A stretch of DNA of 64,000 bases from Bradyrhizobium cytisi (GTDB lineage Bacteria > Pseudomonadota > Alphaproteobacteria > Rhizobiales > Xanthobacteraceae). Shown here in pieces: positions 5,587 through 20,225 of this stretch (the first letter of the stretch is position 1; each line of letters opens with the position of its first letter). The notes beneath the pieces were generated by a model that did not search any database, had not been told where the DNA came from, and saw only the letters and a list, made by a program, of their open reading frames with translations. The position numbers and the translations under genes are program-made. The stretch spans positions 62,001 through 126,000 of the forward strand of contig NZ_VSSR01000047.1 of NCBI RefSeq assembly GCF_008123515.1, read 5' to 3'.

Positions 5587-6303
5587 ATGAGACCGAACGG
5601 CTGTCACACCGCCGGCGCCAGCCAGTTGTCCACCCTCCGTATGTGGGCGATCTGCCTGCTCCTGCTGTCAGCTGTTGCCATGAGCCCGACCACCGCCAAG
5701 GCGGCGCCGAGCCAGGCTGCCGCGACGACGCATGTCTATTTGCTCCGCGGCGTGCTCAACATCTTCTCGCTCGGGCTCGACACGATCGGCGCCCGCCTCC
5801 AGGCGCAGGGCATCCCGGTGACCGTCGCGAACTTCGTGTCCTGGTCCTCGCTCGCCGATGAGGCGGCTGCGAACTACAAGGCGGGCCGGCTCAAGACCAT
5901 CGTGCTGGTCGGGCATTCATCGGGCGCGACCGCGCTGCCCGACATGATCGCCAAGCTCAACCAGCTCGGCGTGCCCGTAAAGCTCGCGATCGGGCTCGAC
6001 TCCGTGTTCAAGACCAAGCTGACGACCGGTGCCGAGCGCTACATCAACATCTATATCGGCGACGGTCCGGGTGAGCCGGTGCGGGCCGCGTCCGGTCTCC
6101 GTGGCAAGCTCGACAATGTCGACGTGCGCGGCAGCGGCGTCGGTCACATCACCATCGACAAGAACGAGGCAATCCAGCGCCGCGTGATCGCCGAGATCGA
6201 TGCCGCGATCGCCCGCTCGCGCGGTCCGGCTGGACCGGTCGCCGAACCCGGCGCTCCGCGGGCTGCGCACTCGGCCGCGGCTGTGGCGCCGGCGAGGAAC
6301 TGA
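5587..6303 (+). CDS. Secreted alpha/beta-hydrolase (lipase/esterase-like)
   Basis: A 238-residue predicted exported protein with an alpha/beta-hydrolase core. Seen: a hydrophobic signal segment at about 20-33 ending in AKA, a first strand THVYLLRG, and the nucleophile elbow VLVGHSSGA with Ser111. The start at 5587 follows AGGGAAAAG; ATGs at 5566 and 5641 are alternatives, and the last gives a tighter signal peptide. A paralogue lies at 8880-9818 with the same order of blocks (YLFRG, GHSMGG, ERFINIFLSD, GHINI-type His region) but with an added LysM domain. Here the His block is SGVGHITIDKNEAIQRR, a plausible catalytic histidine. Substrate unknown; an envelope lipid or ester is inferred only. 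Confidence 0.75.
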   Translation: MRPNGCHTAGASQLSTLRMWAICLLLLSAVAMSPTTAKAAPSQAAATTHVYLLRGVLNIFSLGLDTIGARLQAQGIPVTVANFVSWSSLADEAAANYKAGRLKTIVLVGHSSGATALPDMIAKLNQLGVPVKLAIGLDSVFKTKLTTGAERYINIYIGDGPGEPVRAASGLRGKLDNVDVRGSGVGHITIDKNEAIQRRVIAEIDAAIARSRGPAGPVAEPGAPRAAHSAAAVAPARN

Positions 6304-6414: not shown

Positions 6415-7266
6415 CTACGCCAGGAAGGCGCGAATGGCATCCGCGATCTCGCTTGCATGCGTCTCCAGCGCGAAATGACCGGTGTCGAGGAATTTGACGA
6501 CCGCGTTGGGATTGTCGCGCTTGAACGCTTCGGCGCCGGGCGGAATGAAGAAGGGATCGTTCTTGCCCCAGACCGCGAGGAAGGGCGGCTTGTGCTTGCG
6601 GAAATACTCCTGGAAGGCGGGATAGAGCGCGACATTGCTTTTGTAGTCGCCGAACAGGTCGAGCTGCACGTCATCGGAGCCCGACCGCGCCAGATAGAAA
6701 TTGTCGAGGTTCTGGCCGTCCGGTGACACCAGGCTCGGATCGGGTACGCCATGCGTGTACTGCCAGCGCGTCGTCTCCGGTGTGAGGAAGGCGCGCAGCG
6801 CGTCGCGATTGGCGGGCGATGGATCCTGCCAATAGGCCTTGATCGGAGTCCAGCCTTCGCTCAACCCATCCTCATAGGCGTTGCCGTTTTGCGAGATGAT
6901 GGCCGTGACCCGCTCGGGACGGCTGAGTGCCAATCGGAAGCCGGTCGGCGCGCCATAGTCGAAGACATAGATTCCAAAGCGGTCGAAGCCGATCACCTCG
7001 GTGAAGCGCTCGATCACGCGCGCGATGTTGTCGAAGGTGTAGCTGAACGCTTCGCGCGACGGCATGTCGGACTGGCCGAAGCCGGGAAGATCGGGCGCGA
7101 CCAGGTGAAACTTGTCGGCCAGCAGCGGGATCAGGTCACGGAACATGTGGCCGGCGCTCGGGAAGCCGTGCAGCAGTAGGAGCTTCGGTGCGCGGATAGG
7201 CCCGGCTTCGCGATAGAACACCTTGAAGCCGTCGATGTCGGCCGTGCGATATCTGGTGGAGGTCAT
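6415..7266 (-). CDS. Alpha/beta-hydrolase with Asp nucleophile (haloalkane dehalogenase/epoxide hydrolase type)
   Basis: A cytoplasmic hydrolase of about 283 residues. The oxyanion motif LLHGFPS, the strand DLPGFGQSD and the nucleophile elbow VFDYGAPTG (Asp103) place it with haloalkane dehalogenases and epoxide hydrolases, which use Asp instead of Ser. The late motif LDTGHFALETH supplies the catalytic His, and VWGKNDPFF the acid region. The ATG at 7266 has GGAG six bases upstream; ATG 7281 is an alternative adding five residues. Neighbours on the same strand include another alpha/beta-hydrolase. True substrate unknown: halogenated alkanes, epoxides or esters are all possible for this fold. 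Confidence 0.88.
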   Translation of the reverse strand: MTSTRYRTADIDGFKVFYREAGPIRAPKLLLLHGFPSAGHMFRDLIPLLADKFHLVAPDLPGFGQSDMPSREAFSYTFDNIARVIERFTEVIGFDRFGIYVFDYGAPTGFRLALSRPERVTAIISQNGNAYEDGLSEGWTPIKAYWQDPSPANRDALRAFLTPETTRWQYTHGVPDPSLVSPDGQNLDNFYLARSGSDDVQLDLFGDYKSNVALYPAFQEYFRKHKPPFLAVWGKNDPFFIPPGAEAFKRDNPNAVVKFLDTGHFALETHASEIADAIRAFLA

Positions 7267-7339
7267 GGCAGTCTCCGTCATTGGGGTTGCCTTAAGAAAG
7301 TTGGAACGGCGCCGGCGCGACGCCGGTGGCGCAGGCGCC

Positions 7340-8035
7340 TTAGTTGCCGCTCACGGTGCGGACCGCGTCGCGAATGATGTCGGTGACGGCCGCCGGTGCC
7401 GTGACGCTCGGTGTGTGATCGACGGGGAAGGCGCGGATGTTCGCCTTCATACGCTCCGCCATGTAGCGCTGCGTCTCTGGCACGATCATGCGATCCTGCT
7501 CGGCGATCAGGAACCAGCTCGGGATATCCTTCCAGAGCGGGCGGCCGGCCGGGACCGTGATGCAGTTCAGAGAGATCGGCCGCTGCACGGCCGCGAGCAC
7601 GGCACGATCTTCCGCCGGGGCGTTCTGCGCGAACGCCGCTGCGAAGGCGTCCTCGGGCAGCCAGATCAGGCCATTGTCGTCGGGAGCAAGCTTCGGCGCC
7701 TGCGGATGCGGCGGAAGGCGATAGAACACGTCCGCAACCTTCTCGCTCTCGTCGGGGGCAAGGGCCGCGACATAGACCAGCGCCTTCACGCGGGCAGGAC
7801 GTGCGAGTGCGATCACCGCGCCGGCATAGGCGTGGCCGGCTAGCACGATCGGCCCCTCGGTTCGATCCAAGCTGCGGTTCAGGGCCGCGATATCGTCAGC
7901 CAAAGAGGTCAGCGGCAGCGGCGCCGCCTGCGCCTTGATCCCCTCGGCCCCGAGCGCGGTGATGACGCGCGCCCAGCTCGATCCGTCCGCCCACGCGCCA
8001 TGGGCAAGGACCACCGTGACATTGCCTCGGGCCAT
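7340..8035 (-). CDS. Alpha/beta-hydrolase-like protein lacking the nucleophile serine
   Basis: A 231-residue protein of the alpha/beta-hydrolase family related to short plant-esterase-like enzymes. The fold is well kept: VVLAHGAWADGSSW near residue 8, PLPLTSLADD near 40, and a late histidine in FPVDHTPSV. At the elbow, where GHSYGG is normal, the sequence reads GHAYAG, so the nucleophile Ser is Ala69. It may be non-catalytic, a binding protein, or use another mechanism. ATG 8035 is preferred over 8041 because GGAG sits eight bases before it. The gene is divergent from the CGNR regulator at 8157, and inverted repeats lie between them, which suggests that regulator controls it. Confidence 0.85.
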   Translation of the reverse strand: MARGNVTVVLAHGAWADGSSWARVITALGAEGIKAQAAPLPLTSLADDIAALNRSLDRTEGPIVLAGHAYAGAVIALARPARVKALVYVAALAPDESEKVADVFYRLPPHPQAPKLAPDDNGLIWLPEDAFAAAFAQNAPAEDRAVLAAVQRPISLNCITVPAGRPLWKDIPSWFLIAEQDRMIVPETQRYMAERMKANIRAFPVDHTPSVTAPAAVTDIIRDAVRTVSGN

Positions 8036-8050
8036 CTTCATCTCTCCATC

Positions 8051-8080
8051 GTAACCTGTTCAAGTCTATTTGTAGGTTAC
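8051..8080. promoter_or_regulatory. Operator-like inverted repeat 1
   Basis: GTAACCTGT (8051-8059) and GTAGGTTAC (8072-8080) form an inverted repeat around 12 bases, with one mismatch from the perfect complement ACAGGTTAC. It lies just upstream of the nucleophile-less hydrolase gene and resembles the second repeat at 8092-8122. Probable binding site of the divergent CGNR regulator (inference). Confidence 0.55.
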
Positions 8081-8091
8081 GTTCCTTGATA

Positions 8092-8122
8092 GTAACTTGT
8101 CAACGGCCATTTTACAGGTTAT
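8092..8122. promoter_or_regulatory. Operator-like inverted repeat 2
   Basis: GTAACTTGT (8092-8100) and ACAGGTTAT (8114-8122) repeat the half-site of the element at 8051-8080 with a 13-base spacer. Two similar sites in a short divergent intergenic region suggest cooperative binding by one regulator. Confidence 0.55.
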
Positions 8123-8156
8123 GTTAATGTATTCCGTCCGGCTGGGGGAGCCGCAC

Positions 8157-8780
8157 ATGCCAAACAGACCGCCTGCCATGTTTATTGCCGACGCGCTCGG
8201 TCTCGATTTCCTCAATTCGATTGCGACCCCGGTCGATACGCCCGTCGATTGGATCGACGATGGCGCCGGGCTGATTGACTGGCTAGGCCAGGCCAAGCTC
8301 GTTCCATCTGACGAGCTCGATGCGATGAGAGCGCGCGCCTTGCCGGGCGAGCTGGACAAGGTCGCCGATCAGGCGCGCGCCTTGCGCGAATGGTTCAGAG
8401 GCTTTGTTCGCAAGCATGCAGGCCGGCCGCTCACGGCGAAGGCGCTGCAAGAGCTTGGTCCGTTGAATAGTCTTTTGGAACGCGATGAAGCGTTCCGGCA
8501 GATCGTGTCACGTCACGGTGAGAGCAGTGACGGCCTCGCGCTGCAAAAGATACGGCGCTGGCGGTCGCCCGAGTCCCTGTTGCTGCCGGTCGGCGAGGCG
8601 ATGGCGAAGTTCGTCTGCGAGGAGGACTTTTCCGGCGTGAAGGCGTGCGAGGGCCATAACTGCACGATGCTGTTCGCCGACCACACCCGCAGGCGCGCGC
8701 GACGGTGGTGCATCATGGCGGTCTGCGGCAACCGCGCCAAGCAGGCCGCGCATCGCAACCGACTCAAGAGCAGGCAGTGA
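8157..8780 (+). CDS. CGNR zinc finger domain protein (ABATE-like), putative regulator
   Basis: A 207-residue protein. The N-terminal part (about 9-140) fits the ABATE domain, beginning with the usual LGLDFLNS motif. The C-terminal zinc finger has Cys164, Cys169, Cys185 and Cys190 in the pattern C-x4-C-x15-C-x4-CGNRAK, which gives the family its name. Such proteins are thought to be DNA-binding regulators, often next to the enzymes they control. ATG 8157 follows a strong GGGGGAG site; the frame opens 60 bases earlier, inside the operator region. Divergent to the hydrolase at 7340-8035, with two operator-like repeats between. The ligand is unknown. Confidence 0.85.
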   Translation: MPNRPPAMFIADALGLDFLNSIATPVDTPVDWIDDGAGLIDWLGQAKLVPSDELDAMRARALPGELDKVADQARALREWFRGFVRKHAGRPLTAKALQELGPLNSLLERDEAFRQIVSRHGESSDGLALQKIRRWRSPESLLLPVGEAMAKFVCEEDFSGVKACEGHNCTMLFADHTRRRARRWCIMAVCGNRAKQAAHRNRLKSRQ

Positions 8781-8879: not shown

Positions 8880-9818
8880 ATGATTGATCCAAGGCGACTT
8901 GTGGTGCTGGCAGCGGTTGCGCTGCTCGCCTTGAACCCCGGCATGGCCGCGGCCTCGCCCGCCAAGCCGAAGCCGGCTGCGGTCCCGGCCGTCGCGCCAC
9001 TTCCGCCGGCCGAGCCGTTGCCACCGCCGAAGATCTATCTGTTTCGCGGCGCGATGGGGCCGATCTTCTCGACCGGCATGGACCGGCTTGCCGAGAAGCT
9101 GACCAAGGCCGGCTTCTCGGCCGACGTCTACGAATTCACCATCTGCCGATGGATCGGCGATCGTGCGATTGCGAGCTACAAGGAAGCGCCGGCGCCGATC
9201 GTGCTGATCGGCCATTCCATGGGCGGGCTGTGCTCGGTGATCATCTCCGAGATGGCGGCCAAGGAGAACATCCCGATCAGCCTCGTCATCACCATCGACC
9301 CCGCCCATGCAACCGATGACGTGCCGCTCAATGTCGAGCGCTTCATCAACATCTTCCTCTCCGACAGCGTGCTCGGCGGCGGCAATGTGGTCGCGGTGCC
9401 GGGATTCCGCGGCCATTATGCGAGCTACGACCTCAAGGAGAACTCGCGGGTCTCGCACATCAACATCGAGAAGTCCGACGACATCCACCGCCAGATCGTC
9501 GACATGGTGACGCAGTTGCCGCGCATCCCGCCGCAGATCCAGGTCGATGCTGTGCCGCTGCGCTATCTGGTGCCGGGGGATACGCTGGTCGAGTTGTGGG
9601 ATAGCGGCGTGCGGCTGCCGGTCCGCCGCGGCGACACCATGGCAAGCATTGCTGCCGCCAATCGCGTGCCGCTGTGGACGCTCGCGCAGAGCAACTCGCT
9701 GCCGGAGAATGCGACGCTCACCCCCGGCCAGTCGATCATCGTCCCGCGCCATTTGACGCCGCCGGACGCCGCGGCCGCGATGGCGGCGCCGGCGCCTCCG
9801 CCGGCTGGGCGAAAGTAG
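8880..9818 (+). CDS. Secreted alpha/beta-hydrolase with C-terminal LysM domain
   Basis: A 312-residue exported protein. A signal peptide (about 1-25) and a Pro/Ala-rich linker lead to an alpha/beta-hydrolase core at about 50-215. The nucleophile elbow is LIGHSMGG with Ser113, and a possible acid lies at TIDPAH. A LysM-like module follows at about 247-290 (VRRGDTMASIAAANRV through LTPGQSIIVP), which would hold the enzyme to peptidoglycan. It is a paralogue of the gene at 5587 without LysM. I took the ATG at 8880 with GGGA before it; an earlier GTG frame lacks a signal peptide. It may act on cell-envelope esters; the exact substrate is unknown. Confidence 0.78.
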   Translation: MIDPRRLVVLAAVALLALNPGMAAASPAKPKPAAVPAVAPLPPAEPLPPPKIYLFRGAMGPIFSTGMDRLAEKLTKAGFSADVYEFTICRWIGDRAIASYKEAPAPIVLIGHSMGGLCSVIISEMAAKENIPISLVITIDPAHATDDVPLNVERFINIFLSDSVLGGGNVVAVPGFRGHYASYDLKENSRVSHINIEKSDDIHRQIVDMVTQLPRIPPQIQVDAVPLRYLVPGDTLVELWDSGVRLPVRRGDTMASIAAANRVPLWTLAQSNSLPENATLTPGQSIIVPRHLTPPDAAAAMAAPAPPPAGRK

Positions 9819-9867: not shown

Positions 9868-10941
9868 TCACACGTTCGAGCCGTGGATCGCGTCGATCAC
9901 GGCATCCGTCACGTCCTTCGTGCTCGCCTTGCCGCCGACATCAGGTGTCAGCACGCCAGCGGCGCAGACCTGCTCGACGGCCTTCATCAGCCGTGCGGCT
10001 GCGTCCTTCTCGCCGAGATGCTCGAGCATCTGCGCGCCGGTCCAGAACGTCGCGACCGGGTTGGCGATGCCTTTACCGGTGATGTCGAAGGCCGAGCCGT
10101 GGATCGGCTCGAACATCGAGGGAAAGCGGCGCTGCGGATCGATGTTGCCGGTCGGCGCCACGCCGAGGCTGCCCGCCAGCGCGCCGGCGAGATCTGAGAG
10201 GATGTCGGCGTGGAGGTTGGTCGCCACGATGGTGTCGAGGCTCTTCGGATGCAGCGTCATGCGCACAGTCATGGCGTCGACCAGCATCTTGTCCCAGGTG
10301 ACGTCGGGGAATTCATTGGCGACTTCGGCTGCGATCTCGTCCCACATCACCATGCCGTGGCGCTGCGCGTTCGACTTGGTCACCACGGTCAGGAATTTGC
10401 GCGGACGCGATTGCGCGAGCTGGAATGCGTAACGCATGATGCGGGTGACGCCGACGCGGGTGAACACCGCGACTTCGGTGCCGACCTCTTCCGGCAGGCC
10501 CTTGTGAGCGCGGCCGCCCATGCCGGCATATTCGCCCTCCGAATTCTCGCGCACGATCACCCAGTCGAGATCGCCGATGCCGACATTGCGCAGCGGCGAG
10601 GCGACGCCGGGCAAAATCTTGGTCGGCCGCACATTGGCGTATTGGTCAAAGCCCTGGCAGATCGGCAAGCGCAGGCCCCACAGCGTGATGTGATCAGGCA
10701 CGTCGGGCGCGCCGACCGCGCCGAAATAGATGGCGTCGAACTTCTTCAGTTCAGTGAGGCCATCGGCTGGCATCATCACGCCGTGCTTCTTGTAATAGTC
10801 CGAGCCCCAGTCGAAGGTCTTGATGGTAAAGGCGAGGTCGCCGCTGCGCTTGGCCAGCGCCTCCAGCACGCGGATTCCGGCCGAGATGACCTCGGGACCG
10901 ATGCCGTCGGCGGGAATGGCTGCGATCGAATGGGTGCGCAT
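9868..10941 (-). CDS. Tartrate dehydrogenase / D-malate dehydrogenase family
   Basis: A 357-residue cytoplasmic enzyme of the isocitrate/isopropylmalate dehydrogenase superfamily, of the tartrate dehydrogenase (TtuC) / D-malate dehydrogenase (DmlA) branch. It would oxidise and decarboxylate L-tartrate or D-malate with NAD and a divalent metal. Seen: IPADGIGPEV at the N-terminus, VRENSEGEYAGMGG substrate loop, catalytic Lys in TKSNAQRHG, and metal-binding aspartates in DAMTVRMTLHP and NLHADILSDLAGAL. FEPIHGSAFDITGKGIANP is the NAD-binding stretch. The start lies 21 bases downstream of an ACS-family MFS permease stop, so uptake and oxidation genes form an operon. TtuC and DmlA overlap in substrate, so tartrate is the likely but unproved one. 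Confidence 0.9.
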   Translation of the reverse strand: MRTHSIAAIPADGIGPEVISAGIRVLEALAKRSGDLAFTIKTFDWGSDYYKKHGVMMPADGLTELKKFDAIYFGAVGAPDVPDHITLWGLRLPICQGFDQYANVRPTKILPGVASPLRNVGIGDLDWVIVRENSEGEYAGMGGRAHKGLPEEVGTEVAVFTRVGVTRIMRYAFQLAQSRPRKFLTVVTKSNAQRHGMVMWDEIAAEVANEFPDVTWDKMLVDAMTVRMTLHPKSLDTIVATNLHADILSDLAGALAGSLGVAPTGNIDPQRRFPSMFEPIHGSAFDITGKGIANPVATFWTGAQMLEHLGEKDAAARLMKAVEQVCAAGVLTPDVGGKASTKDVTDAVIDAIHGSNV

Positions 10942-10962
10942 GAGAAAGCTCCGTTGGAGAGA

Positions 10963-12261
10963 TCAGTGGGATTGCGGGACGGGTTCGACGGGCGCGGTCT
11001 GCGCGCGCGACAATAGCAGGGTCAGCACCGCCGAGAGAACGAGCAGGCCGGCGACGAAATAGAGCCCGCCGACAAAACTCCCGGTCTGGTCCTTGATCCA
11101 GCCGATCATGGCAGGACCGACGAAACCGCCGAGATTGCCGATCGAATTGATGGTGGCGATGCCGGCCGCAGCCGCGGGACCGGACAGGAACAGCGTTGGC
11201 ATGCTCCAGAGCGGCGGCTTGGCCGAGGAGATACCGATATTGACCAGCGCCAGTGCCACCAGCACCGCGACGACTCCGGCCGCAAGACCGGCATAGACGA
11301 GGCCCACGGCGGCGATCAGGCAGGCCCACACGACGTGCCAGGTGCGCTCGCCGGTGCGATCCGAATGCCGCGCCCACAGCACCATTGCGACGACGGCAGC
11401 CGTGGCCGGCAACGCATTGAGGAAGCCGACCTGAAGCGTGGACAGGCCGAACTGCTTGATGATCTGCGGCGCCCAGACGCCGAGCGTGTAGAGGCCGGCC
11501 GAAGTGCCGAAATAGATCAGCGACAGCGCCAGCACGCGCGGATCGGCGAGCCCGCGCCAGATGCTATGGCTCGCGGTCGCGGCCTTGCTGGTGGTCTCCT
11601 CATTCATGGTCTCGACCAGCCATCGCCGCTCGTCGTCGGCGAGCCACTTCGCCTTCTCGGGCCGGTCGGTGAGGAACGCAAGCACGACGAAGCCGAGCAG
11701 CACGGCCGGCAGCGCCTCCAGCACGAACAGCCACTGCCAGCCCTTGAAGCCGAATAGTCCGTCCATCTCCAGCAGCGCGCCGGAGACCGGTGAGCCCAGC
11801 ACGGTCGAGAGTGGTGCTGCCGCCATGAACAATGCGGTCACCGCGGCGCGCTGGCGAGCCGGGAACCAGTAGGAGAGATAGAGGATGATGCCGGGAAAGA
11901 AGCCGGCTTCCGCGACGCCGAGCAGGAAGCGCAGGATGTAGAAGCTGGTCGCACCCTGCACGAACGCCATTGCCGCCGAGACCAGGCCCCAGGTGATCAT
12001 CACCCGCGCGATCCAGATCCGGGCGCCGACCTTGTGCAGGATGATGTTGGAGGGCACCTCGAACAGAAAGTAGCCCCAGAAGAAGATGCCGGCGCCAAAA
12101 CCGTAGACGGTCGGCGACTGGCCGATGTCCTTGTTCATCGTCAGCGAGGCGAAGCCGATATTGACGCGGTCGATGAAGGCCACGAAGTAGAGCAGCATGA
12201 TGAAGGGAACGATGCGCCAGGTGATCTTGCGCAGCACGCGCGTCTGAATCTCGCTCGCCAC
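10963..12261 (-). CDS. MFS transporter, anion:cation symporter (ACS) family, tartrate/organic acid type
   Basis: A 432-residue inner membrane permease with twelve predicted helices. The N-terminal signature RIVPFIMLLYFVAFIDRVNIGFA is the ACS family hallmark, shared with TtuB tartrate and related hexuronate or phthalate permeases. GVAEAGFFPGIILYLSYWFP is also typical. I selected GTG at 12261 because GAGGGAGG precedes it and the first helix follows soon after; the frame extends 30 codons upstream but without family-like sequence. It lies directly upstream of the tartrate/malate dehydrogenase, so it likely imports that enzyme's substrate. It is divergent from a LysR gene with a LysR-type box between. 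Confidence 0.92.
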   Translation of the reverse strand: MASEIQTRVLRKITWRIVPFIMLLYFVAFIDRVNIGFASLTMNKDIGQSPTVYGFGAGIFFWGYFLFEVPSNIILHKVGARIWIARVMITWGLVSAAMAFVQGATSFYILRFLLGVAEAGFFPGIILYLSYWFPARQRAAVTALFMAAAPLSTVLGSPVSGALLEMDGLFGFKGWQWLFVLEALPAVLLGFVVLAFLTDRPEKAKWLADDERRWLVETMNEETTSKAATASHSIWRGLADPRVLALSLIYFGTSAGLYTLGVWAPQIIKQFGLSTLQVGFLNALPATAAVVAMVLWARHSDRTGERTWHVVWACLIAAVGLVYAGLAAGVVAVLVALALVNIGISSAKPPLWSMPTLFLSGPAAAAGIATINSIGNLGGFVGPAMIGWIKDQTGSFVGGLYFVAGLLVLSAVLTLLLSRAQTAPVEPVPQSH

Positions 12262-12343
12262 TCTGGCCTCCCTCAAGTCCTGATTCTCGTTGTGTGGCAG
12301 CGAGCCTAGGCGTGGGCAGGAGTGGGACTCAATTGCCGCTGGT

Positions 12344-12364
12344 TTATACAAAAAAATGATATAA
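12344..12364. promoter_or_regulatory. LysR-type operator TTATA-N11-TATAA
   Basis: TTATA (12344-12348) and TATAA (12360-12364) form a perfect inverted pair with eleven bases between, which fits the T-N11-A consensus of LysR regulator sites. It sits between the divergent permease (start 12261) and LysR gene (start 12396), 32 bases before the latter, where autoregulation and activation of the permease operon would be expected. Confidence 0.65.
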
Positions 12365-12395
12365 TCCTCCTACGGTGAGACGAGGGGATCCGCGA

Positions 12396-13313
12396 ATGGA
12401 ATTGCATCAGCTCCGATGCTTCGTGGCGGCGGCCGAGCATCTGCATTTCGGCCGCGCCGCGCAGCATCTCCAGATGCTGCCGTCCGCGCTCGGGCGCCAG
12501 ATCAGGCTGCTGGAAGAGGATCTGGGGACGCGGCTGTTCGCGCGCACCACCCGCGCGGTCTCGCTCACCGAGGACGGCACGACGCTGCTGCGCGACGCCC
12601 GCGCCATCCTCGCCCGGGTCGAAGCCGTGGAGAGTAACCTGCGCAACCGCTCGCGCGCCGGCGCCGCGCGGCGGCTGCGGGTCGGCGCCATCGACAGCGC
12701 GGCGGCGGGGTTGCTGCCGCCGTTGCTGCGTGACTTCCGCGCCGGACATCCCGAGGTCGCGGTCCAGCTGCTGGAGGACAAGACCGTCCGGCTGTTGCCG
12801 AAAATCCTGACCGGCGCGCTCGATCTCGCCTTCGTTCGTCCGCCCGACCGGCCGGACAAGCGGCTGGAGTTCCGGCCTCTGCTTCAGGAGACCGCGATCG
12901 TGGCGTTTCCGCAGCGCCACGCGCTCGCTACGCGCAAGTCGATCACGCTGGCCGACATCGCCGACGAGCCGATGCTGGTCCCGGACCGTCGCTCGCGGCC
13001 GCACAGCCATGACCTCACGATAAAGCTGTTCGAGCAGGCCGGATTGATGCCGCGCATCGTGCAGGTGGCCGACGAGAAGCAGACCATCATCCATCTGGTG
13101 GCAACGAAGCTCGGGGTTGCGATCGTGCCGCGCTGGACCACGCGGATGGCGGTCTCCGGCGTACGCTTCGTACCGCTCCGTCCGAAGCAGAGCGGCCCTG
13201 TCGGCCGGCTGCCGCTGGCGGCGGCCTGGTTGCGCGGATCGCGCGATCCGGCCCGCGATGCGATACTGTCGGTGTTGGAGGCGCGCCTGCGCAGCTATGC
13301 GCGGGAAGCGTGA
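12396..13313 (+). CDS. LysR family transcriptional regulator
   Basis: A 305-residue regulator. The winged helix-turn-helix lies at about 1-60 (MELHQLRCFVAAAEHLHFGRAA, then ALGRQIRLLEEDLGTRLFAR). The C-terminal two-lobed periplasmic-binding fold at about 90-295 binds a small inducer. ATG 12396 follows GAGGGGA. It is divergent from the ACS permease/dehydrogenase pair and precedes aspartate dehydrogenase by 37 bases, so it may control both sides. The dicarboxylic acid context suggests a tartrate-, malate- or aspartate-like inducer, which is inference. Confidence 0.93.
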   Translation: MELHQLRCFVAAAEHLHFGRAAQHLQMLPSALGRQIRLLEEDLGTRLFARTTRAVSLTEDGTTLLRDARAILARVEAVESNLRNRSRAGAARRLRVGAIDSAAAGLLPPLLRDFRAGHPEVAVQLLEDKTVRLLPKILTGALDLAFVRPPDRPDKRLEFRPLLQETAIVAFPQRHALATRKSITLADIADEPMLVPDRRSRPHSHDLTIKLFEQAGLMPRIVQVADEKQTIIHLVATKLGVAIVPRWTTRMAVSGVRFVPLRPKQSGPVGRLPLAAAWLRGSRDPARDAILSVLEARLRSYAREA

Positions 13314-13350
13314 GCGGCTATGACAGTGGCCTGGACAAACGGTGGATGCG

Positions 13351-14175
13351 ATGACTGATCAGAAGGCTCAGAACGAATTGCGGGTTGCCATCGCAGGCCT
13401 GGGCTCGATCGGCAGCAAGATTGCAGCTGCGCTTGATCAGGGCATTGAGGGGCTGACGCTCTCTGCCGTGGCGGTACGCGATCCCGCGAAACACCAGAGC
13501 TTCCTGAGCAGCCTGCGCCGTCCGCCGCAGGTTTTGCCGATCGACCAGCTCGGCGACGCCGCCGACATCGTGGTCGAATGCGCGCCGAGCAGCCAGCTGC
13601 GCTCCATCGTCGAGCCGGCGGTGACGCGCGGCAGGTCCGCGGTCGTGGTCAGCGTTGGCGGATTGCTCGATAATTTTGATCTCGTCGATATCGCCCGCTC
13701 CAATGGCGGCCGCATCCTCGTCCCGACCGGTGCGCTGATCGGGCTCGATGCGGTCAACGCAGCTGCGGTCGGCACCGTTCATTCGGTGAAGATGGTTACG
13801 CGCAAGCCGATCGACGGGCTGAAGGGCGCACCGTTCATCGTTCAGAACAAGATCGATCTCGACAATCTGCGCGAGCCGCTAAAACTGTTCGAGGGCAGCG
13901 CGCGCGACGCGGCGAAGGGCTTCCCGGCGAACGTCAATGTCGCCGTTGCGCTGTCGCTGGCGGGTATCGGCCCCGATCGCACCCGGATGCAGGTTTGGGC
14001 CGACCCCACCGTGACGCGCAATGTTCACCGCATCGAGGTCGAAGCGGATTCGGCGCGGTTCTCGATGGGCATCGAGAACATCCCATCCGAAAATCCCAAG
14101 ACCGGGATGATCACCGCGCTGTCCGTGATCGCGCTGCTGCGCAAGCAGCGCGCCACGCTTTGCGTCGGGACGTAA
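13351..14175 (+). CDS. nadX: Aspartate dehydrogenase
   Basis: A 274-residue NAD(P)-dependent enzyme that converts L-aspartate to iminoaspartate/oxaloacetate, able to feed NAD synthesis or aspartate catabolism. A Rossmann motif VAIAGLGSIGSKIA lies near the N-terminus. The DUF108 C-terminal domain is clear: RILVPTGALIGLDAV, the FPANVNVAVALSLAGIG segment and the DRTRMQVWADP strand, the last two carrying conserved active-site residues of the family. ATG 13351 follows GGTGG; a GTG three codons earlier is possible. It follows the LysR gene closely and on the same strand. In this context of permease and dicarboxylate dehydrogenase, a catabolic role is as likely as quinolinate supply. Confidence 0.85.
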   Translation: MTDQKAQNELRVAIAGLGSIGSKIAAALDQGIEGLTLSAVAVRDPAKHQSFLSSLRRPPQVLPIDQLGDAADIVVECAPSSQLRSIVEPAVTRGRSAVVVSVGGLLDNFDLVDIARSNGGRILVPTGALIGLDAVNAAAVGTVHSVKMVTRKPIDGLKGAPFIVQNKIDLDNLREPLKLFEGSARDAAKGFPANVNVAVALSLAGIGPDRTRMQVWADPTVTRNVHRIEVEADSARFSMGIENIPSENPKTGMITALSVIALLRKQRATLCVGT

Positions 14176-14179
14176 CTCT

Positions 14180-15484
14180 CTAAGCGCCGGTGACGCGCCA
14201 GATCACGTTGCCGACGTCATCGGCCATCAGCAGCGACTTCTTGTCGGGGCCGATCGCGACGCCAACCGGGCGGCCGTAGGATTCCTTCTCGTCCGGGGAC
14301 AGGAAGCCTGACAGGATGTCGCGACCGGGGCCGGAGGGTTTGCCGTTCTCGAACGGGATGAACACCAGCTTGTAGCCGGACAGCGTGCTGCGATTCCACG
14401 AGCCGTGCTGGCCGATCACCATGCCATCGGGGAAGCCCGGCAGGGTGCCGGCAGGCATCCAGCACAGGCCGAGCGAAGCGGTGTGGCCACCGAGCGCGTA
14501 GTCCGGTTGAAGCGCCTTGGCGACCATCGCTGCATCCTGCGGCACGCGGTCGTCCACCGTCTTGCCCCAGTAGCAATAGGGCCAGCCGTAGAAGCCGCCG
14601 TCGCGCACCGAGGTCAGGTAGTCCGGCGGCGTCTCGTCGCCGAGCCCGTCGCGCTCGTTGACGACGGTCCAGAGCACGTTCGTGTTCGGCTCCCACGCGA
14701 GTCCAACCGGGTTGCGCAGTCCCGCACCAAAAATGCGATGCGTGCCGGCGGCGAGATCGAGCTCGTAGACCGCCGCGCGGCCTTCCTCGACCTCCATGCC
14801 CATCTCGGCGATGTTGCTGAGCGAGCCGACGCCGGCGTAGAGCTTCTTGCCGTCGGGGCTGGCGAGCAGGCTGCGCGTCCAGTGGCCGCTCGGCTTGAAG
14901 GTGGTGAGCCGCTTGCCCGGCGCGGTGATGCGATCGGCATTGGCGACGTAAGGAAAGGCCATCACGCCGTCGGTGTTGCCGACATAGAAGGTGTCGCCGA
15001 CCAGCGCCATGCCGAACGGCTGGCTGAGGTTCTCCATGAAGGCGCCGCGATATTCAGCGACGCCGTCGCCGTCCTTGTCGCGCAGGAGCGTGATGCGGTT
15101 GGCGGACTCGCCGAGCGCCGCGGCGCGCCGCATCGTCGCCTGCATCGCGTAGTGGAACACCGACCTCGGGGCGCCCGCGATCTGCGTCGCTTCCGCGATC
15201 AGCACGTCGCCATTGGGCAGCACCTCGATCCAGCGTGGATGGTCGAGCCCGGTCGCAAACGCATTGACCTTGAGCCCGGGTGCGACCGTCGGCTTCTGGC
15301 CCTCGCTCCAGCCGCGGGCGGTCGGCATCTTCAGCGTCGGCAGCGCGCCTTGCGGCTTCGCTTCGGGAATCGCCGGCGCTTGGCCCCAGGCCGGCGCGGG
15401 TGTGGTGCCCGACAGCTTTCGCCATTGCAGCGCGATGCCGCCCACGAACGCGACGAACTGCGCAAAGATGCTGGAAAATGTCAT
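14180..15484 (-). CDS. Sorbosone dehydrogenase family (PQQ-type beta-propeller) oxidoreductase
   Basis: A 434-residue protein, probably periplasmic and anchored by a hydrophobic N-terminus (SIFAQFVAFVGGIALQW). The beta-propeller belongs to the L-sorbosone/soluble glucose dehydrogenase family, which uses PQQ to oxidise sugars or aldehydes. Visible hallmarks are GLDHPRWIEVLPNGDVLIAE, RDKDGDGVAE (a calcium-site-like loop), GLRNPVGLAWEP, RDGGFYGWPYC and the final VAIGPDKKSLLMADDVGNVIWRV. ATG 15484 follows AGGGGA; the frame continues upstream without support. It is convergent with nadX, five bases apart. Whether PQQ is made by this organism cannot be seen here; substrate unknown. Confidence 0.85.
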   Translation of the reverse strand: MTFSSIFAQFVAFVGGIALQWRKLSGTTPAPAWGQAPAIPEAKPQGALPTLKMPTARGWSEGQKPTVAPGLKVNAFATGLDHPRWIEVLPNGDVLIAEATQIAGAPRSVFHYAMQATMRRAAALGESANRITLLRDKDGDGVAEYRGAFMENLSQPFGMALVGDTFYVGNTDGVMAFPYVANADRITAPGKRLTTFKPSGHWTRSLLASPDGKKLYAGVGSLSNIAEMGMEVEEGRAAVYELDLAAGTHRIFGAGLRNPVGLAWEPNTNVLWTVVNERDGLGDETPPDYLTSVRDGGFYGWPYCYWGKTVDDRVPQDAAMVAKALQPDYALGGHTASLGLCWMPAGTLPGFPDGMVIGQHGSWNRSTLSGYKLVFIPFENGKPSGPGRDILSGFLSPDEKESYGRPVGVAIGPDKKSLLMADDVGNVIWRVTGA

Positions 15485-15721
15485 GAAAATCCCCTGTCGA
15501 ACCCTGCGGCGCTGTCCAATGCGGATCGCCCAAAGCCCCGCGCGGGCCAGGACCTGATCTCTGCCTGATCGTCGAACTCTCCAGATCGACGATGAACTGT
15601 CGCCGTGCCGTTTTGCGCGCGCATCCAACTGGGTCGCGGTCAAAAGGTCAACCGCGGCGGAACTCCGCGGAGGTCTATTCCCGTGGAATGGCTGCTGATC
15701 GAATTTGCATGGGCGAGGGGA

Positions 15722-15931: not shown

Positions 15932-16013
15932 GGCTCGATGCTCTGCGGTGCATGCGTCGAGGCGTAAACGGACGAATGAAGGGGCGGTTCCCGTCAGCGC
16001 GTCGAACTGTGCG

Positions 16014-16144
16014 CTGTGCCCCGGACGCAGCGTAGCGCGCCTTCCGCGGTGCGCTGCTGAGCCGGGGCCCATCTTACGACGGCCATCTGGGTCCCGGCTC
16101 TGCGTCGCAACGCCAAGAGCGTTGCAACGCGTCCGGGACACGAG
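16014..16144. repeat. Nested palindromic intergenic repeat
   Basis: An outer imperfect pair, TGTGCCCCGGACGC near 16015 and GCGTCCGGGACACG near 16130, encloses an inner pair, GAGCCGGGGCCCA near 16060 and TGGGTCCCGGCTC near 16087. From memory, this kind of sequence is a common Bradyrhizobium intergenic repeat. It lies downstream of the ICMT-like gene and upstream of the small gene at 15722-15931. Confidence 0.65.
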
Positions 16145-16152
16145 ACTAAACT

Positions 16153-16779
16153 TCAGCGCGGCGAGAGGAAGGGGATGATCATCGGGACGCGACGGCAATA
16201 GGCGCCGTAGGCATCTTCGCCGAGCTCCTTCGACAAAAACACCTCTTCCATCCGGCCCTTCTGCCACATGCCGAGTGAGATCAGGATTGCGCCGAGGATC
16301 GTCGTCACTGTACCGATCGCTATGCCGGTGACGAGCATGCCGAAGATCAGCCCGGTGTAGATCGGGTGCCGCACGATGCCGTACGGGCCGGTGTCGATGA
16401 CGCGGTGGTCTTCCTTGTGGGTGATGGTGTTGGACCAAAACTTTCCAAGATGCAGCCGCCCCCACCAGGCGAAGGCGATGCCGGCGACCGAGAGAACCGC
16501 GGCGATGGAGATGCCCGTGTTGCTGAGCACCCAGAGCGGCTTCCAGCCCATGACTTCCGCAATCCATGGCGTGTACAGGATGCCGCCGACCAGGATCGGC
16601 AGACGATAGCGCTGCGACTCCAGCGTCATGACCTGCTTCTTGGTGCGGCCCTGCCAGAACGAGGCGCCCACCCAGCTGGCGAGAAAGGCGAGCCAGATCA
16701 GGGCCAGGAGTTCGGTCGGCCAGGTCGTGGTCCAGCCGCCCCAGGCGACAGAGAGAAGCTTGCTGAAATCGAAGGACAT
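16153..16779 (-). CDS. Isoprenylcysteine carboxyl methyltransferase/PEMT-like integral membrane methyltransferase
   Basis: A 208-residue inner membrane protein with about five hydrophobic segments. The C-terminal half carries the ICMT/PEMT signature: GRLHLGKFWSNTI, DTGPYGIVRHPIYTG, and a final EEVFLSKELGEDAYGAYCRRVPMIIPFL that matches the family's EE...Y...VPR..P ending. Bacterial members methylate lipids or other hydrophobic acceptors with S-adenosylmethionine; they do not act on prenylated proteins. It is the last of three closely spaced genes (Mpo1-like, SDR, this), 30 bases after the SDR stop. The lipid substrate is unknown. Confidence 0.85.
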   Translation of the reverse strand: MSFDFSKLLSVAWGGWTTTWPTELLALIWLAFLASWVGASFWQGRTKKQVMTLESQRYRLPILVGGILYTPWIAEVMGWKPLWVLSNTGISIAAVLSVAGIAFAWWGRLHLGKFWSNTITHKEDHRVIDTGPYGIVRHPIYTGLIFGMLVTGIAIGTVTTILGAILISLGMWQKGRMEEVFLSKELGEDAYGAYCRRVPMIIPFLSPR

Positions 16780-16809
16780 GCGGAAAGGTTCTTTGGGTTG
16801 GGGAGCAGA

Positions 16810-17841
16810 TCAGCTCGCGCGCGACGACAGTGCGTGATGCTCGATGGCATTGGACGCGGCCTGGCCGCCGCGGGCGAGCAGATGGGTGATGGTTTCGCGC
16901 AGCACCGGCTCGATCGGGCGCGGCGCATAGCCGAGCTCGTTACGGGCCTTGCCAATTGAAAGGTCGCTCGCGGCAAGCGCAATGCGCACGCCCTCGGCGG
17001 TACCGTTGGGCGGACGGCGCGTGATGCGGTCGGAGATCGATTCCAGCATGATGGCGGAGAGCTCGGCGATCTTGCCGGGAACGACCACCGGATATTGCCG
17101 CCGTCCGCTCATCGCTGACATCATCCGCAGGATCTGGCCGAGCCTGACGCAATCGCCGCCGAGGATGTAGCGCTGGCCGGTGCGGCCGCGCTCCATCGTC
17201 AGCACCAGGCCCATGGCGACGTCGCGAACGTCGACGAGGTTGACCAGGAAGTCGAGATGCGGCTGCACCTTCTTCTGCAGGAAGTACCACAGCATTGCGG
17301 TGGGCGGCGTCAGATTGTGGTCGGCGGGACCGATCGGCATGGTCGGCGTGCCGATCACGAGCGGGAAGCCCCTGGATGCGGCCTTCGCCGCGTGGTGCTC
17401 GGCGAGCGACTTCGAGCGCGTGTAGGCGCCGGGCATCGCGTCGGCCGGCTGCAGCGCCTCCTCGGCGGCAACGCCGTCGAGGTTCGCATAAGGAAACAGG
17501 ATCGATTCCGTCGAGCAGTGCAGGAAGCGCGACACACCGCGCTTCATCGCAGCCGCAAGCACGACCTCGGTGCCGCGGAAATTGACGTCATGAAAATCCC
17601 GCTTGTTGGCGACCCACATGCCGGGCAGGCCGGCGAGGTGATAGACTTGGTCTATCCCGGAAAGCGCAGCATCGACCGCGGCGCCGTCCAGCACCGAGCC
17701 GTGCAGATATTCAACGTCCGCGTTCGCGGCGGCCGGCGGCCGCACATCGAGAACACGTACCCGCTGCCCACGGTCGCGGAGCGCTTCGACGAGATGCTGT
17801 CCGATGAAACCGCTGCCACCGGTAACCAGTACGAGAGTCAT
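16810..17841 (-). CDS. NAD(P)-dependent epimerase/dehydratase (extended SDR, 3-beta-HSD-like)
   Basis: A 343-residue extended short-chain dehydrogenase. The Rossmann motif VTGGSGFIGQHL (Gly8, Gly11, Gly14) and the catalytic YTRSK (Tyr-x3-Lys) are intact. The VYHLAGLPGMW and STESILFPYAN strands and the PIGPADHNLTPP loop resemble the 3-beta-hydroxysteroid dehydrogenase / dihydroflavonol reductase branch, which also holds HpnA of hopanoid clusters. The start at 17841 is set by the beta strand MTLVLVTGG; the ribosome site is weak. Middle gene of a three-gene operon with a Mpo1-like oxygenase and an ICMT-like methyltransferase, which points to oxidation and methylation of a lipid (inference). Confidence 0.87.
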   Translation of the reverse strand: MTLVLVTGGSGFIGQHLVEALRDRGQRVRVLDVRPPAAANADVEYLHGSVLDGAAVDAALSGIDQVYHLAGLPGMWVANKRDFHDVNFRGTEVVLAAAMKRGVSRFLHCSTESILFPYANLDGVAAEEALQPADAMPGAYTRSKSLAEHHAAKAASRGFPLVIGTPTMPIGPADHNLTPPTAMLWYFLQKKVQPHLDFLVNLVDVRDVAMGLVLTMERGRTGQRYILGGDCVRLGQILRMMSAMSGRRQYPVVVPGKIAELSAIMLESISDRITRRPPNGTAEGVRIALAASDLSIGKARNELGYAPRPIEPVLRETITHLLARGGQAASNAIEHHALSSRAS

Positions 17842-17873
17842 GAAGTAGGTTTTGCTGTTCCGCTTCGAGAAAG

Positions 17874-18392
17874 CTATCGGGTTGAAAGGGAGTTGCTCGG
17901 AAGAGGCGCGAGAATCGCGGCAAGGTCGCGACGAAAACCCAGTGCAATGTAAAATTTTGCCATCACGAACATCGGTCCAAGCAGAAAATGCGTGGGGTGG
18001 TCGACCATCGACGGCTGCCGCTCCTCGAACACCCTGTGGCCGACGATCTGCGATGCGACGCCGAGCACGATCAGCACCGCAAAAATCGACCACATCATGG
18101 CAAGCGAGACCTGATTGCCGATCGCGGTTGCGACCGAAAGCAGCACGATCATCGACACGAGGATGCCGAGCCCGACCCCGGCGTCCAGCATCAGCCAGTA
18201 GACCAGCACCGGCAGGGCCAAAATCACCGCCAGGCTGACCTCGAACCCGAACACGGAGAAATGGACCAGCGTCAGCGGCAGCGTCGCGCCGGTGAAGAGC
18301 AGGAGAATGCCGACCACATGCATCGCGCAATTCCAGGGATCGCGATGGTATTCGACATAATCGGCCAGTTGGCGTTGAAAATGGCCAGCCAT
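17874..18392 (-). CDS. Mpo1-like protein (DUF962), putative 2-hydroxy fatty acid dioxygenase
   Basis: A 172-residue integral membrane protein with four to five hydrophobic segments. It carries the family's histidine motifs, YHRDPWNCAMHVVG near the N-terminus and GHRVFEERQPSMVDHPTHF toward the C-terminus. In yeast Mpo1, an iron(II) dioxygenase that shortens 2-hydroxy fatty acids by one carbon, histidines in these regions bind the metal. Start ATG 18392 gives the usual N-terminus; upstream codons lack family character. It is first in a likely operon, 32 bases before the SDR gene. Bacterial members are little studied, so the reaction is by family analogy only. Confidence 0.85.
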   Translation of the reverse strand: MAGHFQRQLADYVEYHRDPWNCAMHVVGILLLFTGATLPLTLVHFSVFGFEVSLAVILALPVLVYWLMLDAGVGLGILVSMIVLLSVATAIGNQVSLAMMWSIFAVLIVLGVASQIVGHRVFEERQPSMVDHPTHFLLGPMFVMAKFYIALGFRRDLAAILAPLPSNSLSTR

Positions 18393-18564
18393 CTTGGTCT
18401 CATACGGCACGGGGGCGGGGAAGGGCGAAGACTGCCTATAGCACCTGATAGGGCAGTGCACAAACTGGCGCTATTGTCGCGCAGGACCGCGCTGTCGCGC
18501 TGTGAGACAGGTCACAAATCAGCCAAGACTTCAACGGGTTCCGCCAGGCGCGAAGGCCGCGCGC

Positions 18565-19236
18565 TCAATGCTTCCTGGCGGGCTTTTTCGCCGCAGGCGC
18601 AGGCCCCGCTGCCGGATGCGCAGGCGCCTCTTCGGGCACTTTGGCAAAGGTCAGGATTTGCAACTGGCCGTTGACCGCCGAGGTCGGCTTGGCGCGGTCG
18701 AGGAGCTGCTCCTCGCCGAGGCCGATCGGCTGCAGCCGCTTGGTCGAAATCTTGAACGTGTTGACCAGTACATCGCGGATCGCATCCGCCCGGCGCTGGC
18801 TCAGGATCGCGTTGGCTTCCCGCGTCTTCTGATTGGACTCGACATGGCCGGCGATCAGGAACGTGTAGGGCAGCAGCGAGGCGTGAACCATTGCGTCGGC
18901 GATCCGGCCGACGGTCTGGTAGGAGTCCGGCTGGATGATCGGCGTGTCGGCGTCGAACTGGATCTGGGCGTTGAAGGCGGGCAGCTTGGCCAGATCGGGC
19001 GCGATCAGCGGCCGGTTCACCGGACCCGGATCGTTCTTGATCCTGGCCTTGGCTCGCTCCATCACCTGCCGCTTCAGCGCGGGAAGGTCGAGCTCGGGGG
19101 CCTCCTCGAAATGATTGAGCTTGCCGACGATGTCGTCACGGGTCGGCGCCGTCTGTGCGCCTGCTGCGCCCGCGAGCAGAGCGAGGCCCAATGCGAAACC
19201 GAGTCCGGCGGTGATGTGCCCGGCTGCGCGCATCAT
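18565..19236 (-). CDS. OmpA family protein
   Basis: A 223-residue exported protein. The signal peptide covers about residues 1-27 (GLGFALGLALLAGAAGAQ). The OmpA-like peptidoglycan-binding domain at about 90-205 shows IQFDADTPIIQPDSYQTV, IAGHVES and the LSQRRADAIRDVLV helix. It departs from the consensus: the usual GHTDS is GHVES, and the final NRRVEI-type strand is NGQLQI, so binding of diaminopimelate may be altered. A Pro/Ala/Lys tail ends the protein. The start MM overlaps the stop of the upstream Cys-rich gene as ATGATGA, which implies translational coupling of the two exported proteins. Confidence 0.88.
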   Translation of the reverse strand: MMRAAGHITAGLGFALGLALLAGAAGAQTAPTRDDIVGKLNHFEEAPELDLPALKRQVMERAKARIKNDPGPVNRPLIAPDLAKLPAFNAQIQFDADTPIIQPDSYQTVGRIADAMVHASLLPYTFLIAGHVESNQKTREANAILSQRRADAIRDVLVNTFKISTKRLQPIGLGEEQLLDRAKPTSAVNGQLQILTFAKVPEEAPAHPAAGPAPAAKKPARKH

Positions 19237-19737: not shown

Positions 19738-20028
19738 TCACTCGGCAGCGTGAGCGCGGCTAGGCAACTCTATCAGGGCGACCATGTAGTTCCTGAGGTC
19801 CTCGGCAACCTCTGGATCGGCCTTAAGTTCGGTCAACGTCCTCGGCGAGGGAAGCTGGCGGCCGTCCCCGATCAGCTCCTGCGCGTAGAGCTCAAGCGCT
19901 TCCGGTGCATTCTCCAAGGCTTCGTCGATGTCGTCGCCGCCAGAAATGCAGCCGGGTAGGTCTGGAAACCACACGCCGACGGCGTGGTCCGGGCCTGCGT
20001 CCTCAATGATGGCAATGTAGTGAGCCAT
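19738..20028 (-). CDS. hicB: HicB family antitoxin
   Basis: A 96-residue antitoxin of a HicAB type II toxin-antitoxin module. The HicB partial RNase-H-like fold is recognisable: YIAIIEDAGPDHAVGVWFPDLPGCISGGDDIDEAL followed by a helix rich in Glu and Ala. No clear C-terminal ribbon-helix-helix is present, so promoter binding may be weak or indirect. ATG 20028 follows GAGGTCGAT. The toxin gene lies directly upstream with a damaged 3' end, and HicB normally binds and neutralises HicA and may block its mRNA cleavage. Confidence 0.9.
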   Translation of the reverse strand: MAHYIAIIEDAGPDHAVGVWFPDLPGCISGGDDIDEALENAPEALELYAQELIGDGRQLPSPRTLTELKADPEVAEDLRNYMVALIELPSRAHAAE

Positions 20029-20225
20029 ATCGACCTCAATCGGGCTTCCAGCCCGCCATAAATGGCACGGACCAAGCCCTTTCCCAAGTCCTTCTCGGGA
20101 TGCGGAACGACGATCGTTTCGCCCGAAGCGGGACTTTTGAACACGTGATGCGACCTGGTCACACGCACGAGTTTCCAGCCCTCTCGCTCCAGACGACGAA
20201 TAATGTCGCGGCTTGCGGTCAGCAT
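19872..20225 (-). CDS. hicA: HicA family toxin with frameshifted 3' end
   Basis: HicA toxins are small double-stranded-RNA-binding-like mRNA interferases of about 60 residues. Here the N-terminal part is normal: SRDIIRRLEREGWKLVRV, catalytic His in TRSHHVFK, VVPHPEKDLGKGLVRAIY. After IY (near 20058) the frame runs on for about 60 codons over hicB. In the next frame the DNA reads AGWKPD and TGA at 20036-20038, the usual HicA ending, 7 bases before hicB. So two or five bases seem to have been lost. The toxin would carry a long foreign tail, or be inactive. Start 20225 has GGGGAGAAA upstream. Confidence 0.75.
   Translation of the reverse strand: MLTASRDIIRRLEREGWKLVRVTRSHHVFKSPASGETIVVPHPEKDLGKGLVRAIYGGLEARLRSIWLTTLPSLRTQARTTPSACGFQTYPAAFLAATTSTKPWRMHRKRLSSTRRS

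Follow-up and report, generated by a model that had tools for sequence, protein, structure and literature searches.

What does a compact operon of three lipid-type genes do in Bradyrhizobium? The operon lies in a 64,000-nucleotide stretch of Bradyrhizobium cytisi DNA (contig NZ_VSSR01000047.1, positions 62,001 to 126,000 of the forward strand; hereafter the window) and encodes an Mpo1-like membrane protein, an extended short-chain dehydrogenase/reductase (SDR) and an ICMT/PEMT-like membrane methyltransferase. Comparison with related genomes shows that the trio belongs with two hydrolase genes, here called HYD1 and HYD2, and the five very probably form one functional module, judging by their conservation. 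From the sequences, we propose tentatively that this module both makes the hopanoid acid that Bradyrhizobium lipid A carries in covalent linkage and attaches it. The features concerned are listed below (ORF, open reading frame).

18435-18464, minus strand: promoter-like element (TTTGT, spacer, TATAG), 5' of the operon and conserved
18392-17874, minus strand: Mpo1-like (DUF962) membrane protein, 172 aa, first in transcription order
17841-16810, minus strand: extended SDR, 343 aa, in a clade apart from true HpnA
16779-16153, minus strand: ICMT/PEMT-like membrane methyltransferase, 208 aa, third in transcription order
About 8880-9818, plus strand: HYD1, alpha/beta serine hydrolase (GHSMGG) with a signal-like N-terminus and a C-terminal LysM; start uncertain, ORF from 8823
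About 5587-6303, plus strand: HYD2, smaller alpha/beta-type serine hydrolase (GHSSGA) with a signal-like N-terminus; start uncertain

The three operon genes are separated by 32 bp (Mpo1-like to SDR) and 30 bp (SDR to ICMT-like), and the coordinates and Pfam matches bear out the one-strand, three-gene operon described in the initial annotation. The Mpo1-like protein belongs to PF06127 (57.8 bits, cut-off 24); the SDR scores 108.3 bits with Epimerase and 88.9 bits with 3Beta_HSD, and the ICMT-like protein 43.3 bits with PF04140 (cut-off 24) and 34.5 bits with PF04191 (cut-off 25). Characteristic residues are also retained. The window's Mpo1-like protein has H16, H25, H119 and E123, each conserved at 91% across 32 aligned sequences, and the conserved histidines are presumably Fe(II) ligands. 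A Gly-rich NAD motif, D32 and Y140xxxK144 occur without exception in 8 aligned SDR sequences, as do RHPxYxG and EE in 10 aligned ICMT-like sequences.

Is the trio a stable unit? A scan of named genomes with the SDR gave 137 relatives, and in each of the best 80 loci the trio is collinear on a single strand, with gaps of 27-33 and 26-36 bp. The titles of these 80 are Bradyrhizobium or Bradyrhizobiaceae, with the sole exception of Frankia sp. RB7; at that locus (L105) the trio is present with an SDR 97% identical to the window's, and its DNA is more likely of Bradyrhizobium than of Frankia origin. Of 98 Bradyrhizobium genomes, 75 have the Mpo1-like gene, and it is these same 75 that have the SDR and the ICMT-like gene. 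The three are adjacent in every case, their matches lying 31-63 and 43-113 bp apart; the ICMT-like match of G409 falls into two pieces. The initial annotation had named such a survey as its check and scattered genes as its refutation; within the genus no scattering was seen, and outside it one locus, L255, pairs the Mpo1-like and SDR genes but lacks the ICMT-like one. None of the 98 genomes has two complete trios. A second, paralogous operon was considered and rejected, the loci of about 60% identity being the same module at other chromosomal sites (type II). Extra Mpo1-like copies or fragments (G001, G017, G028, G358, G369, G371, G376 and G378) and a second SDR in G001 may be remnants; the lone Mpo1-like copy L022 has lost H16.

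Is the trio complete? The initial annotation took three genes as the unit and overlooked HYD1 and HYD2. Strong HYD1 matches (>400 bits) are found in exactly the 75 of 98 genus genomes that carry the trio, and in six of the 23 trio-free genomes only a weak relative (104-112 bits) is present. In six wide type II loci HYD1 lies head-on to the ICMT-like gene, followed in five by HYD2; in the sixth (L040) the contig start precludes seeing HYD2. The outer genes vary among these loci, though they are partly common to L039, L040 and L046, and no gene besides the five recurs in all six. Across the 75 genomes the distance from HYD1 to the ICMT-like gene is <400 bp in 24 and 1.9-30 kb in 47, and in 4 the two are on separate contigs; the window has about 6.3 kb between them, within a range of HYD1-trio spacings elsewhere that runs from <50 bp up to 30 kb. 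It is because the same 75 genomes carry the trio and HYD1, with the order kept among differing outer genes and again in another genus (L253), that we treat the five genes as one module.

The same data bear on a simpler explanation, namely that only the neighbourhood is conserved and the genes act in separate processes. Conservation alone is no proof of a pathway, most genomes have a single locus, and L255 pairs just two of the genes. A UvrD tree, which represents one gene and one locus and is read irrespective of branch supports, so that the number of events drawn from it is approximate, covers 56 of the 97 genomes with a UvrD match, including 22 of the 23 that lack the module. These 22 fall into 8 clades, and module presence takes 7 parsimony changes, compared with a mean of 17.7 and a minimum of 13 in 500 label shuffles. 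The simplest reading is that the module has been lost or transferred as a block. Gene-tree distance correlations in 15 genomes (partial correlations of 0.23-0.73 after UvrD) are weak evidence. The four probed genes are all-or-none over the 8 separate absent clades, HYD1 persists in 47 genomes where 1.9-30 kb of other DNA lies in between, and gene order is kept in another genus; a mere shared neighbourhood is very unlikely.

The region upstream of the operon is conserved as well. All 81 loci of the window's type (the window and the 80 named loci) have the TTTGT-spacer-TATAG element ahead of the Mpo1-like gene, and the element occurs once in the entire window, both strands scanned; a generic sigma-70 scan found nothing within 15950-18700. 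Type II loci carry a different element: TTTGAC can be made out by eye in all 15 aligned loci, which include a lone Mpo1-like copy, and 11 of the 15 match the pattern TTTAA[CG]TA[CG] downstream of it.

What kind of lipid might such a module act on? Both hydrolases have a hydrophobic N-terminal stretch resembling a signal peptide and a Ser-Asp-His set that can be read from alignments; HYD2 has no Pfam match. The structural model of HYD1 has low confidence (a mean pLDDT, the predicted local distance difference test score, of 62.2), and its best fold match (2qjw, E 7.6e-6) points to an alpha/beta hydrolase and nothing more specific. Its resemblance to thioesterases, lipases and cutinases would suit a catabolic set for plant or soil lipids, in which exported hydrolases free 2-hydroxy acids and the Mpo1-like protein and SDR shorten them; plants are rich in 2-hydroxy acyl sphingolipids, which counts for this idea. 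Nothing beyond the five genes recurs in the six wide loci, however, so no transporter or CoA ligase accompanies the set; the methyltransferase fits poorly with breakdown, and the LysM of HYD1 suggests a fixed position in the envelope. We consider a catabolic role quite unlikely.

The SDR also bears on the substrate. Its best NCBIfam family is HpnA (TIGR03466), at 261.5 bits against a cut-off of 367.65. An HpnA search of 37 genomes included 23 of the genus: in 16 of these the top match was a trio-type SDR (250-267 bits), and no genus genome reached the cut-off. A FastTree tree of 30 SDRs gives the trio clade a support of 0.98, with weak support inside it, and groups it with SDRs from outside the genus in a clade neighbouring, and apart from, true HpnA. 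The resemblance to 3-beta-HSD and HpnA seen by the initial annotation thus holds, but the protein is not HpnA itself, an identity ruled out by score. With the sterol demethylase SdmB (NF052578), the SDR scores 135 bits, below the cut-off of 600. The function of HpnA is itself not established, according to PMC12583986.

Some relatives of the SDR outside the genus also share hopanoid-gene neighbours with HpnA. Hopanoid genes are found near 4 of the 12 out-of-genus SDRs in the trio group: the SDRs of L256 and L261 adjoin HpnG, that of L257 is one large ORF from HpnG, and that of L254 is beside HpnA, followed by HpnK, HpnJ, HpnI and HpnL, all above their cut-offs. L254 and L253 belong to the same genome (G418), where true HpnA and a trio-type SDR thus stand side by side. 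A more distant relative, L091, lies among HpnH, HpnE and HpnB, all three above cut-off, HpnG (172.2 bits of 187.1) and part of HpnN; two other distant relatives, L089 and L090, have no such hopanoid neighbours.

These neighbours suggest a hopanoid, and Bradyrhizobium is reported to bind one to lipid A (hopanoid-lipid A, HoLA) in the photosynthetic strains ORS278, ORS285 and BTAi1. In PMC5613085, the hopanoid unit of ORS278 lipid A has a mass of 512.4 Da (526.4 when methylated), and the hopanoid-attaching enzyme is counted among those still unidentified. HoLA would be the product of the module; it differs from the module in being known as a structure, with no genes found assigned to making or attaching the hopanoid acid. 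The same paper shows that ORS278 lipid A bears 30:0(2,29-2OH), a 2-hydroxy acid, and this raises another explanation, in which the target of the module is not the hopanoid but this 2-hydroxylated very-long-chain acid: the Mpo1-like protein would shorten very-long-chain 2-hydroxy acids, 2-hydroxy fatty acids being the known Mpo1 substrate, and the hydrolases would trim or move them. Such tailoring leaves no role for the SDR and methyltransferase, and it sits badly with the hopanoid genes next to 4 of the 12 SDR relatives; we regard it as unlikely.

The acyl group of a dihydroxylated C34 acid has a computed mass of 512.423, and that of its C35 homologue 526.439; the published 512.4 unit fits the C34 acid-diol, which has one carbon fewer than C35 hopanoids. 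In ordinary extended hopanoids the skeleton is C35 and the hydroxyls sit at C32-C35. To reach a C34 acid from such a skeleton, one carbon must therefore be lost, and a one-carbon loss is Mpo1-type chemistry.

The Mpo1-like protein can be compared directly with yeast Mpo1 (YGL010w/DUF962), a 2-hydroxy fatty acid dioxygenase. It scores above the profile cut-off and keeps H16, H25, GH119 and E123, which we take to be residues needed in the yeast enzyme. Unlike yeast Mpo1, the genus forms compared have an extra H135, absent from 24 distant Mpo1-like relatives (L053-L076), and the proposed substrate is a hopanoid acid. The initial annotation had the protein acting on 2-hydroxy fatty acids; the family assignment stands, but the 2-hydroxy acid in question may sit on the side chain of a hopanoid and not be a fatty acid of the ordinary kind. 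The methyltransferase is likewise near and yet distinct from its characterised relatives. It shares Pfam superfamily matches and the RHPxYxG and EE motifs with ICMT/PEMT methyltransferases, but scores only 57.2 bits with the isoprenylcysteine O-methyltransferase family NF040696 (cut-off 160), and prenylcysteine methylation is ruled out on that score.

From the conservation, gene families, neighbours and masses observed, we infer every enzymatic step of the following pathway. In the first step, the NAD-type SDR would oxidise C35 of a C35 hopanoid such as ribosylhopane to the lactone or the acid; the resulting 34-hydroxy-35-oic acid is of the 2-hydroxy type. The SDR would suit this oxidation best with ribosylhopane, the product of HpnG, in which C35 is the anomeric carbon; some SDR relatives adjoin the HpnG gene. 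In the second, the Mpo1-like membrane dioxygenase would remove C35 by Fe(II)/O2 alpha-oxidation to leave a C34 acid with 32,33-hydroxyls. In the third, the ICMT-like membrane enzyme would cap the carboxylate as a methyl ester or otherwise ready it, and the methyltransferase and exported hydrolases together would prepare and transfer the C34 acid. The five genes could in this way be the missing route from a C35 hopanoid to the C34 HoLA acid, joined to lipid A outside the inner membrane, by way of Mpo1-type one-carbon alpha-oxidation of a triterpenoid sugar acid; this specific route is put forward more tentatively still than the product. To our knowledge, such an alpha-oxidation has not been described in bacteria. 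From an shc mutant, the authors of PMC5613085 infer that lipid A receives its very-long-chain acid first and the hopanoid afterwards, an order that suits exported enzymes.

The hopanoid neighbours would also fit a module whose product is not HoLA but a hopanoid acid or ester that stays free or is bound elsewhere, for example an exported membrane lipid, and hydrolases are not necessarily transacylases. No free hopanoid acid of this sort is known to us from Bradyrhizobium; a bound one is reported there, and hydrolases conserved with the operon fit attachment. We judge such a hopanoid product unlikely.

Does the distribution of the module agree with that of HoLA? Absence of the module from photosynthetic strains would have troubled the HoLA proposal. 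The SDR-positive genome G688 was examined in 60 stretches of 20 kb, one of which is the module locus. One stretch (L288) contains bchX, bchY, bchZ, pufL and pufM, with 55-71% identity to Roseobacter plasmid proteins, and another (L285) contains a compact five-gene module beside uvrD, so that at least one photosynthetic Bradyrhizobium has the module. As far as this one genome goes, the outcome agrees with the proposal. Among the best 80 of 137 named loci, the module is also present in those titled B. japonicum and B. yuanmingense, in both of which HoLA presumably occurs.

Outside the genus, by listed coordinates, no case of Mpo1-like and SDR genes side by side was found in 299 genomes drawn from the phylum, with the best candidates per genome scored. 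Of 385 genomes of the class, the two in which HYD1 was found are both Bradyrhizobium. When 341 genomes of the family were searched, 11 from other genera, all of them drafts, proved to have close SDRs (E up to 1e-75). L253 (G418, 680 contigs) has all five genes, compact and in module order; L264 (G590, a 3.4-kb contig) has a cut SDR followed by the ICMT-like gene, HYD1 and HYD2; and L252 (G523) has the Mpo1-like and SDR genes, with the contig starting where the third gene would be. The Mpo1-like and SDR genes overlap by 4 bp as called in L252, L253 and L255 (G712). At seven loci (L256, L258, L259, L260, L261, L262 and L263) the SDR, a member of the neighbouring branches, has a carbamoyl-phosphate-synthase-like neighbour, presumably of the ATP-grasp type; the two that were scanned resemble PRK06849 at 112 and 108 bits, under the cut-off of 406. 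Near the SDR of L263 there are also two direct-repeat arrays (2160-2995 and 4342 onward) with 66 bp spacing, CRISPR-like in that spacing, and transposase-like ORFs between and beside them.

A number of points weigh against the HoLA proposal. The HoLA acid, which we take to be 34-carboxyl-bacteriohopane-32,33-diol, fits 512.423, but the term '34-carboxyl' was not found in the open-access papers searched. PMC5613085 calls the unit a C35-hopanoid, and the mass accuracy there, about 55 ppm, is alone insufficient to exclude C35H60O2. According to PMC12583986, all Bradyrhizobium genomes have shc, but 23 of the 98 lack the module, so it does not simply track the ability to make hopanoids. The photosynthetic test involved a single genome. 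Eight of the 12 out-of-genus SDRs have no match to HpnB, E, G, H, I, J, K or L in the available stretch, and these eight, the only hpn genes tried, gave no match in the window, 15 wide genus loci or the 80 named loci (E up to 1e-15). In L255 the gene after the SDR is unrelated rather than ICMT-like. In the seven non-genus genomes besides those of L252, L253, L255 and L264, the SDR is near the carbamoyl-phosphate-synthase-like gene (adjacent in five, one ORF off in two), and the other module genes were not found in the available stretches. HYD1 has an in-frame stop in 3 of the 75 genomes (G001, G030 and G371), a fold search with the Mpo1-like model, itself of modest confidence, found no structural match (best E 2.6), and the role given to the methyltransferase is a guess.

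Other genes lie among and around those of the module. In the window, the interval between HYD2 and HYD1 (6415-8780) encodes two more alpha/beta hydrolases together with a regulator in which an ABATE and a CGNR zinc-finger domain are combined, and about 6 kb of unrelated genes between HYD1 and the trio (9868-15643) encode an isocitrate/isopropylmalate-type dehydrogenase, an MFS-type transporter, a LysR-type regulator, an aspartate dehydrogenase and a sorbosone-type dehydrogenase. At 19738-20225, minus strand, overlapping ORFs match a HicA toxin (PF07927, 58.2 bits) and a HicB-like antitoxin (PF15919, 67.6 bits) and are situated between OmpA-like/Cys-rich genes and uvrD. In the wide type II locus L036 (4676-9356), the module is preceded by genes for a MAPEG protein, a CrtC/lipocalin-like protein and an ABC-type transporter, none of them shared by the other five wide type II loci.

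In a search limited to open-access papers, none was found in which these genes are given a function or an enzyme is named for the hopanoid of HoLA. The lipid-modifying pathway that the initial annotation supposed to be undescribed is in this sense upheld as a conserved lipid-type operon, but with five genes and a substrate that may be of the hopanoid type. The result is a conserved five-gene module, not described in the searchable papers, with a specific and testable proposal for its product. According to PMC5613085, HoLA probably makes the outer membrane of Bradyrhizobium stiffer, and mutants without hopanoids are sensitive to stress and nodulate poorly. With five named genes that can be deleted individually, the question of how the hopanoid is attached becomes directly testable. 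If the proposal is true, it would provide the first function for bacterial long-form Mpo1-like proteins, and the module would predict which Bradyrhizobium species lack HoLA.

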